From Streptomyces liangshanensis (GTDB taxonomy: Bacteria > Actinomycetota > Actinomycetes > Streptomycetales > Streptomycetaceae): a stretch of 64,000 nucleotides of DNA. Location: contig NZ_CP050177.1 of NCBI RefSeq assembly GCF_011694815.1, positions 186,001 to 250,000 on the forward strand, given 5' to 3'. Of the stretch, positions 14,200 to 36,371 are shown in pieces; position 1 is the stretch's first letter, and the number at the start of each line of letters is the position of its first letter. A program made the translations under genes and the position numbers. The notes under the pieces were generated by a model. That model was not told the DNA's origin. It saw only the letters and a list, made by a program, of their open reading frames with translations, and searched no databases.

Positions 14200-17100
14200 C
14201 TACGGCCTCGGCAGGAAGCCGGTGTCGTGGAAGTAGGTCAGGTAGCGGGTGAGGACCTCGTCGGTCAGGGGCGGGAGGTGGGCGCCGAGGGTCGCCGCCG
14301 CCTTGGCCGTCTGGGCCGAGTCGAAGTGGCGGTGGTCCGTCGTCCCGTGGTGGGGGTGGGCCTCGTCGCCCAGGAAGAGCTGGGCGGCGTTGTCGGGTCG
14401 GGCCGCGACGAGGGTCTGCCAGTCCGGGGCGGGGACCGTCCGCAGTACGTGGCCGAGGCGGGCCGCGGTGTCGAAGACACGGTCCAGGCCGGGGGCGTCC
14501 GGGTTCGTGAGGTGGTACGTCTCCGCCCCGGTCTGGCCCGCCGCGGACAGCGCCACGATCGCGGCGCTGACGTGGTCCACGGGCACCCAGTCGGTCGACC
14601 CGTACGGCAGGTCCGGTACGGCTCCCGCCTGGAGGCACCCCTTGATGAGCTGCCACAGCAGGTCCCGGTCCTGGCAGGCGCCGGTGGTGGTGTCGCCGCT
14701 GATACGGCCGGGGCGGTAGACGGTCACCGGCAGGCCGCGTTCGCGGGCCAGGCCGATCAGCCCCTCCGCGACCCACTTGCTGCGCGCGTACCCGTCGGGC
14801 AGGTCGGCGGCCGGGCCCGCCGGGGTCGACTCCGTGATGGTGACGGGGTCGGGGCCGGGCGCCGGCGCGTGGACGCCCGTGGTCGAGATGTAGTGCATCC
14901 CGGGTGAGGCGGAGTCGGCGAGCAGGCGCAGCAGTTCCTCGGTGCCGCCGACGTTCGGGGCGCGAAGATCACCGTACGGGGCGGCGAAGTTGACGCGCGC
15001 GCCGTTGTGCAGGACGGGGCCGAGGCGGCGGACCAGCGCGGTCCGGTCCGCCGGGGAGAGGCCGAGGCCCGGGGCGGCCAGGTCGCCGGGGACGGGGTGG
15101 ATCAGGGTCTCGTACCGGGGGCGCCACAGGCCGTACCGCTCCAGGTTGCCCCGCAGCCGCTCCCCCGCGCTCCGCTCGTCCCGGGCCCGTACGAGGCAGT
15201 CGACCGGCCCGCCGGTGGTGTCGAGGAGGTCGCGCAGGAGGAACGCGCCGAGGAAGCCCGACGCGCCGGTCAGCAGGGGACGAGCGGTGGGGCGGGAGGC
15301 GGGGCGGGAGGGTCCGTGGGAGGCGGGCGCGGGGGCCGTGCGGCGGACGTCGCGGCCCGCGCCCGTGATGTCCGGGGCGAGGCGCACCTCCGCGGTCAGG
15401 TCCGGGGCGGCGGCGAGGTCGGGCGCGGCGGTGGGTGTCTCGGCCGCGGGATCGCACGCCTTACGCCCCAGGAGACGGTCGACGCCCTCGACGGTGGGAG
15501 CGGCGAACAGGGCGCGCAGGGAGACCCGGTGTCCGCACCGCTCCTCGATCCGCTGGACCAGCGTCACCGCCAGCAGGGAGTGGCCGCCCAGGACGAAGAA
15601 GTCGTCCGTGACGCCGACCTCGGGCCGGCCCAGTGTCCGCGCGAACACCTCGCACAGGGCGCGTTCCCGGTCGGTGCGGGGCGCTCGCCCGCCGGCCGTC
15701 ACGGCCAGGTCGGGCGCGGGCAGGGCGCGCCGGTCGGTCTTGCCGTTGGGCGTGACGGGCAGGGCGTCGAGCCGTACGAACGCGGCGGGCACGAGGTGGG
15801 CGGGCAGCGTCGCGGTGAGGTGGGACCGCAGCGCGGCCTCGTCCGGCCCCGCCGTCCCGGCCTCGGGCACGGTGTACGCGACGAGGCGCCGGTCCCCCGG
15901 CCGGTCCTCGCGGACGACGGCGCAGGCCGCGCCGACGCCGGGCAGCGCGGTGAGTACGGCCTCGATCTCGCCCAACTCGATGCGGAAGCCGCGCAGTTTG
16001 ACCTGGTCGTCGACGCGCGACACGTACACGAGTTGGCCGTCGGCGGTCCAGCGGACCAGATCGCCGGTGCGGTACATCCGGCCCCCCGGAGGTCCGAACG
16101 GGGCGGCCACGAACCGGGACGCGGTCAGGGCCGCCCTGCCGTGGTAGCCGCGGGCCAACCCGGCGCCGGACACGTAGAGTTCGCCGACGACGCCGGGCGG
16201 TACGGGTGCGAGCCGGTCGTCCAGGACGTGGACCCGGGTACCGTCGACGGGTACGCCGACGGGCACGGTCCGGTCGGGGGCGAGCGGCCCGTCCGCGTGC
16301 TGGAAGGCGCTCATGGTGGCGCAGACGGTCGTCTCGGTGGGGCCGTACGCGTTGGTGAGGAACCGGTCGCGGGCCCAGGTGTGCACGAGGGCGGGCGAGC
16401 AGGCCTCACCGGCGAGGACCATCGTGGTCCCGGCGGGCAGCGAGTCGGGCGGCATCACCGCGAGGGCGGCGGGCGGCAGGGTGAGGTGGGTGACGCCGCG
16501 GGCCCGGACGAGGGCGGCGAGGGTGGGCCCGGGGAGCAGGGCGTCGCGCTCGTCGATCTCCAGGCAGGCCCCGGAGAGCAGCCCCATGCACAGCTCCCAG
16601 AACGCGGCGTCGAAGCTCACGGACGCCAGGTGGAGCACCCGGCTCCCGGGGCCGACGCGCAGGCGCTCGCTCTGGGTCCTGGCCATCGCGCCGATGCCCC
16701 GGTGGGTGACCACGACGCCCTTGGGGCGGCCGGTGGAGCCGGAGGTGTAGATGACGTAGGCGGGATGGGCCGGGAGGAGGGACGGGGCGGGGGCGGGGCG
16801 GTCGGTGGGCGGGTCCCCCGCGTCCGCGGGGCCGGGGCGGGGTGCGTCCCCGAGGTCGTCGGCGTACAGGCACGGCACCGGGGAGTCCGGGAGCTCGCGG
16901 TGGACGGCGCGGGTGGTGAGGAGCAGCCGGGGCCGGGCGTCGTCGAGCATGTACGAGAGACGGGCGGCCGGGTAGGCGGGGTCCAGCGGGACGTACGCCG
17001 CCCCGGCCTTGAGGATGCCGAGGAGCGCCACGACGAGGTCGCGGGTACGGGGCAGGGCGACGGCCACCCGGTCCTCGGGGCCGATGCCCCGCGCGGTGAG

Positions 17101-36371: not shown

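Follow-up and report, generated by a model that had tools for sequence, protein, structure and literature searches.

Organization of the locus

The window, by which we mean the whole stretch of 64,000 nucleotides of Streptomyces liangshanensis DNA that was analyzed, contains on its minus strand an mbtH-like gene followed by two large non-ribosomal peptide synthetase (NRPS) genes, first NRPS-A and then NRPS-B. The features of this trio are listed below, in which C, A, T, E and R stand for condensation, adenylation, carrier, epimerization and reductase domains; the boundaries of the modules and of the E domain are approximate.

36778..36996, minus strand: mbtH-like gene, GTG start, 72 aa; Pfam MbtH, E 1e-25
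36640..36686, minus strand: inverted repeat in the mbtH-nrpsA gap, GATCGATTTCGCTC-like arms and 6-base loop; the window copy is imperfect
21816..36371, minus strand: NRPS-A, ATG at 36371, 4851 aa, (C-A-T)4-E
33132..36371, minus strand: module 1, starter-like C, A with code DAFFAGVTF, T
29817..33131, minus strand: module 2, C, A with code DAWQLGLVD (Gln type), T
26598..29816, minus strand: module 3, C, A with code DAFFCGVTF, T
23382..26597, minus strand: module 4, C, A with code DAWQLGLID (Gln type), T with a GGDSI motif
21819..23381, minus strand: putative E domain at the end of NRPS-A, fifth PF00668 match plus motif
14200..21819, minus strand: NRPS-B, GTG at 21819, 2539 aa, C-A-T-C-A-T-R
18670..21819, minus strand: module 5, C of the post-E type, A with code DAFFAGATF, T
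15460..18669, minus strand: module 6, C, A with code DAWTVAAVC (Phe type), T
14212..15276, minus strand: thioester reductase (R) domain, TIGR01746

Translations, Pfam matches and motifs agree with the coordinates, strand and domain order originally predicted for the two synthetases, to which we add the mbtH-like gene, absent from that prediction. MbtH-like proteins are partners of adenylation domains. Both NRPS translations are free of internal stops, and the GTG start of NRPS-B overlaps the stop of NRPS-A by 4 bases. According to Pfam, NRPS-A contains five condensation-type, four AMP-binding and four carrier domains, and NRPS-B contains two condensation, two AMP-binding and two carrier domains plus one NAD_binding_4 reductase; six carrier serine motifs, together with HHxxxDG motifs, are present across the two proteins. 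The fifth PF00668 match of NRPS-A is taken as an E domain on the basis of a motif at residue 4475. Behind its C-A-T modules, NRPS-B ends with an R domain, recognized by Pfam and TIGR01746, in the place of a thioesterase, which is the arrangement of a reductively terminated NRPS. A plus-strand frame at 36500-37216 has no Pfam match and was rejected as a shadow of mbtH.

Conservation of the trio

A search with the reductase region gave 1720 of 7985 scored candidates at E <= 0.001, so chance matching is not an issue. The best 120 of these 1720 matches, including the window's own protein, are 69-100% identical, and the species names given among them (some entries have none) are all Streptomyces, with the exception of one Actinacidiphila. 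A genome scan yielded 69 loci, 31 of which (L006-L036) are 69-85% identical to the query over all of it or, where a contig ends, over part of it. Whole clusters were compared at 14 of these 31 loci, picked for their long flanks and by their R domain and hence no survey. A distant Nocardia locus was discarded as unrelated (best match to the first condensation domain, C1, 36%). In all 14 relatives nrpsA starts in the same place, C1 is 64-75% identical, and an mbtH gene with 75-82% identity (tblastn) lies within about 0.65 kb upstream of nrpsA. Twelve of the 14 have uninterrupted reading frames for both synthetases, and over these 12 clusters the identity to the window is 75-81% for NRPS-A and 76-82% for NRPS-B, each adenylation code being at most two letters off. 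Broken frames were found for both NRPS genes in Streptomyces sp. RKAG290 and for NRPS-B in S. fulvorobeus, reflecting either sequencing error or decay.

Among 150 Streptomyces genomes drawn evenly, the own genome included, an R domain of at least 65% identity is present in nine, the next best match being 48%. In Kitasatospora papulosa, Streptomyces sp. SirexAA-E and S. atroolivaceus, the R domain of the trio is the sole thioester reductase above the family cut-off. The assembly line of the window is therefore not unique; it belongs to a family that is widespread in Streptomyces. As a separate observation, the genome of S. liangshanensis has a second thioester-reductase domain above the cut-off, located elsewhere (G000:C1:6890916-6892094) in a frame of 1579 aa.

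Probable relationship with the flavopeptins

Excerpts from the literature describe the flavopeptins as acyl-protected peptide aldehydes (PMC10548850) that inhibit cysteine proteases (PMC4071589) and the proteasome, and that are made in Streptomyces sp. NRRL F-6652 by an R-domain NRPS (PMC8009326). Within the open-licence PMC literature that was searched we found neither a description of the cluster by sequence nor a mention of phenylalaninal; the strain NRRL F-6652 is named there in two articles, both of them reviews. In the original flavopeptin paper, NRRL F-6652 is reportedly described as closely related to S. flavogriseus ATCC 33331 (now S. pratensis), and S. pratensis ATCC 33331 is present in the taxonomy. 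P0054, a protein that carries the S. pratensis label, shares 98.1% identity with NRPS-B of K. papulosa and 81.0% with that of the window. Since the trio is present in K. papulosa, this near-identity strengthens the tie with the flavopeptins. It should be noted that P0072, a further protein so labelled, shares just 82.8% identity with P0054, which means that the S. pratensis label spans more than one lineage; both proteins carry the family codes in modules 5 and 6. Based on these K. papulosa and S. pratensis-labelled relatives, the family to which the trio belongs is probably the flavopeptin family.

Predicted peptide chain

The adenylation codes were read from alignment columns at positions 1-9 of 10, most positions being read by motif as well, and all six turned out to be those given originally. 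The Gln-type codes of modules 2 and 4 had been considered close to one reported for Gln, and they are one to two letters away from DAWQFGLIDK and DAWQTGLIDK, which in an excerpt of PMC2866473 are tabulated with Gln as the known substrate; a related code, DAWQFGLINK, has been given for L-Gln (PMC3992020). The code of module 6, said to be a published Phe code, agrees at the nine positions read with DAWTVAAVCK, for which, according to an excerpt of PMC9866976, Phe was predicted as the substrate in the lunaemycin cluster. The codes of modules 1, 3 and 5 differ by two to three letters from DAFFLGVTYK, for which excerpts of PMC2866473 and PMC9866976 give Ile as the prediction; these modules would select aliphatic residues, with Val and Ile not separable by the code. 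In the open-licence PMC literature that was searched, the Phe code was the only exact match, the other five of the six codes having none. We also considered whether modules 1 and 3 reflect recent copying of a domain. Their A-domain DNA is 79% identical and the longest exact run is 50 bases, and therefore we do not claim a fresh duplication.

Two of the condensation domains fit the predicted chain. The top PDB matches of C1 are a 7c1k-type NRPS condensation domain and, next, C1 of the CDA synthetase (4jn3). The presence of the CDA starter domain among the closest solved relatives suggests, at the level of sequence, that residue 1 is N-acylated, which is what a starter domain in a flavopeptin-type synthetase would do. 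For the first C domain of NRPS-B, the top matches are PvdL, bacitracin synthase 3, surfactin subunit 3, microcystin synthetase B and tyrocidine synthase 2. The matched domains of the bacitracin, surfactin and tyrocidine synthetases presumably follow a subunit ending in an E domain. A C domain of the post-E type at the start of NRPS-B is what would be expected if an E domain closes NRPS-A.

It is a real, although minority, possibility that the trio makes a distinct acyl-hexapeptide aldehyde unlike any flavopeptin, for instance one that differs in its acyl starter or in its aliphatic residues. On the one hand, the NRPSs of the window are no more than 75-82% identical to those of the relatives, and position 7 of the module 5 code is A, while it is V in 10 of the 12 relatives and in both S. 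pratensis-labelled proteins. On the other hand, the remaining codes fall inside the variation of the family, so that the peptide pattern is probably shared.

Release of the chain

TIGR01746 matches residues 2182-2536 of NRPS-B with 296.6 bits, against a cut-off of 213.35. The NADPH-binding and catalytic motifs (GxxGxLG, S-T and Y-x3-K) are kept, and GxxGxLG, S153-T154, Y185 and K189 (numbering of the slice) are invariant in 17 aligned sequences. A structure model of the domain has a mean pLDDT of 82.5, with three loops or ends below 50. In a Foldseek search with this model, the closest solved R domain is that of a Streptomyces coelicolor polyketide synthase (PKS) (8v1x), followed by that of MxaA. 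In the family-model comparison that gave the TIGR01746 match, the model for the myxochelin synthetase MxcG matches as well. We take the two solved reductases to differ in outcome, 8v1x stopping after two electrons, which forms an aldehyde, and MxaA transferring four, and for this reason homology alone does not settle the choice between aldehyde and alcohol.

The main rival to the aldehyde is a product with the same peptide chain in which a four-electron reduction gives a C-terminal alcohol, phenylalaninol. We consider this unlikely. The place of MxaA as second-best solved relative and the match to the MxcG model speak for it, and so does the statement, in an excerpt of PMC8949500, that the aldehyde formed by an R domain usually undergoes a second reduction to the alcohol. 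However, the same excerpt names the flavopeptins as an aldehyde exception, and the NRPS family described here is probably theirs. Furthermore, the closest solved domain is the 8v1x reductase, and the conservation around mbtH-nrpsA-nrpsB does not extend to any separate reductase gene. Taken together, release would be reductive, and the released end is most likely an aldehyde.

Limits of the putative cassette

In the 14 genomes, 9 kb of upstream and 10 kb of downstream flank were compared with 25 and 14 kb, respectively, in the window. The thresholds were 120 aa for frame length, 35% for identity and 40% for coverage, so that small genes could escape. Only mbtH is common to all flanks compared, the window's included; four genomes have further upstream genes in common with each other. 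Thus, the upstream genes of the window, such as those for a flavin reductase and luciferase-like enzymes, were rejected as cluster members, as they are not shared in this comparison. Neither did these flanks contain a conserved gene for an acyl ligase or a carrier beside the cassette. When 21 neighbouring genes of the window were compared with the downstream side of 32 related loci, none recurred broadly: the SpoIIE-type phosphatase was matched in two loci (85% in L006 and 42% in L007) and an ABC ATPase distantly in two, and the downstream genes were rejected as well.

That the PLP decarboxylase encoded at 12470-13891 tailors the product, making the cluster larger than the trio, is very improbable: its gene shares the strand of NRPS-B and follows it after about 300 bases, but it has no match in the 32 related loci, some of which have short downstream flanks, and in Streptomyces sp. 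SID3212 about 350 bases separate the R domain from the start of a match to the SpoIIE-type phosphatase. Streptomyces sp. SID3212 is the closest relative, and the phosphatase gene of the window lies 12 kb further on. Because the phosphatase match directly follows NRPS-B in this relative, the window genes between NRPS-B and the phosphatase gene, including the PLP decarboxylase gene, may be local insertions, as judged from this one comparison.

Several other neighbours are worth recording in their own right. The region 37548-51376 contains, on one strand, genes for a flavin reductase, an alpha/beta hydrolase, two luciferase-like monooxygenases, an acyl-CoA dehydrogenase-like protein, a molybdopterin oxidoreductase and an oligopeptide-type ABC transporter, a set that is reminiscent of organosulfur use. 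At 57522-63982, a carboxyltransferase gene adjoins one for an AMP-forming ligase, and these are followed by aldo/keto reductase and MFS transporter genes. A ketol-acid reductoisomerase gene (3657-5273), unmatched in the related loci examined, is located near an NRPS that would need Val or Ile.

Possible regulatory features

NRPS-A has one TTA among its 602 leucine codons, at residue 58 (36198-36200). At the aligned site in 13 clusters the codon is TTA in five, TTG in three, CTA in one, CTG in three and ATG in one. Five of the 13 nrpsA genes, including that of K. papulosa, lack any TTA, and the TTA at residue 264 of the window's nrpsB is absent from all 12 relatives, both of which count against control by bldA.

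The gap between mbtH and nrpsA measures 288-417 bases in all 15 clusters (406 in the window). A match resembling the right arm of the inverted repeat at 36640..36686 is present in 13 of the 15, using a pattern tuned by eye. Pairing, with G-T counted, reaches 77% at the best of 34 registers and 24-51% at the others, and some pairs have changes on both sides. The repeat is the top-scoring hairpin of the gap in eight of the 15 clusters, the window not being among these, and it could be either an operator or an RNA hairpin. The best hairpin of the window's gap is a GC-rich one at 36708-36755, just after mbtH (-48.3 kcal/mol, RNAfold), possibly a terminator or attenuator. A conserved promoter-like block with TGGCGTGAAC, which fits the AdpA consensus TGGCSNGWWY, lies at 37197-37206, 210 bases upstream of mbtH. 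AdpA-like boxes occur upstream of mbtH in seven of the 15 clusters, five of them at the aligned site, compared with 3.5% of single-base shuffles; the regions compared are related by descent, and for this reason the evidence for the box is weak. We speculated whether the trio is a conserved minimal locus that is developmentally timed by bldA, AdpA and a factor binding the inverted repeat, with flavopeptin-type aldehydes that target proteases of the producing strain itself while it differentiates and do not serve as weapons, and regard this as doubtful.

Proposed assembly line and comparison with known systems

From the domain order, codes, motifs and conservation of the trio we infer the following scheme, to which we assign a probability of about 75%. 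The mbtH, nrpsA and nrpsB genes would form a self-contained biosynthetic cassette, orthologous to a family that is widespread in Streptomyces and to which the flavopeptin synthetase most likely belongs. The starter C domain would acylate the first aliphatic residue; modules 1 to 6 would incorporate, in turn, an aliphatic residue, Gln, an aliphatic residue, Gln, an aliphatic residue and Phe; and the E domain would epimerize the Gln of module 4 to D-Gln. Using NAD(P)H, the R domain would then free a linear, N-acylated hexapeptide with an aldehyde at its C terminus, N-acyl-(Val/Ile)-Gln-(Val/Ile)-D-Gln-(Val/Ile)-Phe aldehyde. As an electrophile, such a compound would act as an inhibitor of cysteine, threonine or serine proteases. 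The domain logic and the codes support the acyl-X-Gln-X-D-Gln-X-Phe pattern with reductive release of the original prediction, from which Val/Ile, the acyl group and the aldehyde are carried over as predictions. The scheme predicts masses from 702.41 Da plus the acyl group (all-Val form); the value calculated for the all-Val aldehyde before acylation is 702.4065 Da, to which each Ile in place of Val adds 14.0157 Da, and an alcohol end would add 2.0157 Da. The occurrence of the same assembly line in many Streptomyces suggests that flavopeptin-type inhibitors may be commoner than a single strain would indicate. Moreover, a stand-alone trio is a small target for cloning and offers a route to the question of why Streptomyces use peptide aldehydes.

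Parts of the assembly line resemble domains of other systems. C1 is like the starter C domain of the CDA synthetase (4jn3), a 7c1k-type C domain scoring slightly higher. The R domains of MxcG and MxaA belong to the same thioester reductase family and have the same fold as that of the window, whereas their assembly lines differ; we take the outcome of their reduction to be an alcohol or an amine, unlike the aldehyde predicted here. At the level of the whole cluster, the loci of K. papulosa, S. atroolivaceus, S. clavifer, Streptomyces sp. SirexAA-E and others have the gene order and module number of the window and near-identical codes. These mbtH-nrpsA-nrpsB loci differ from the window in that protein identity is 75-82%, each code may deviate by one or two letters and the flanks are not shared. 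Finally, the flavopeptin synthetase, which is set beside the window by its description in excerpts, is likewise a Streptomyces NRPS with a terminal R domain that produces N-acyl peptide aldehydes.
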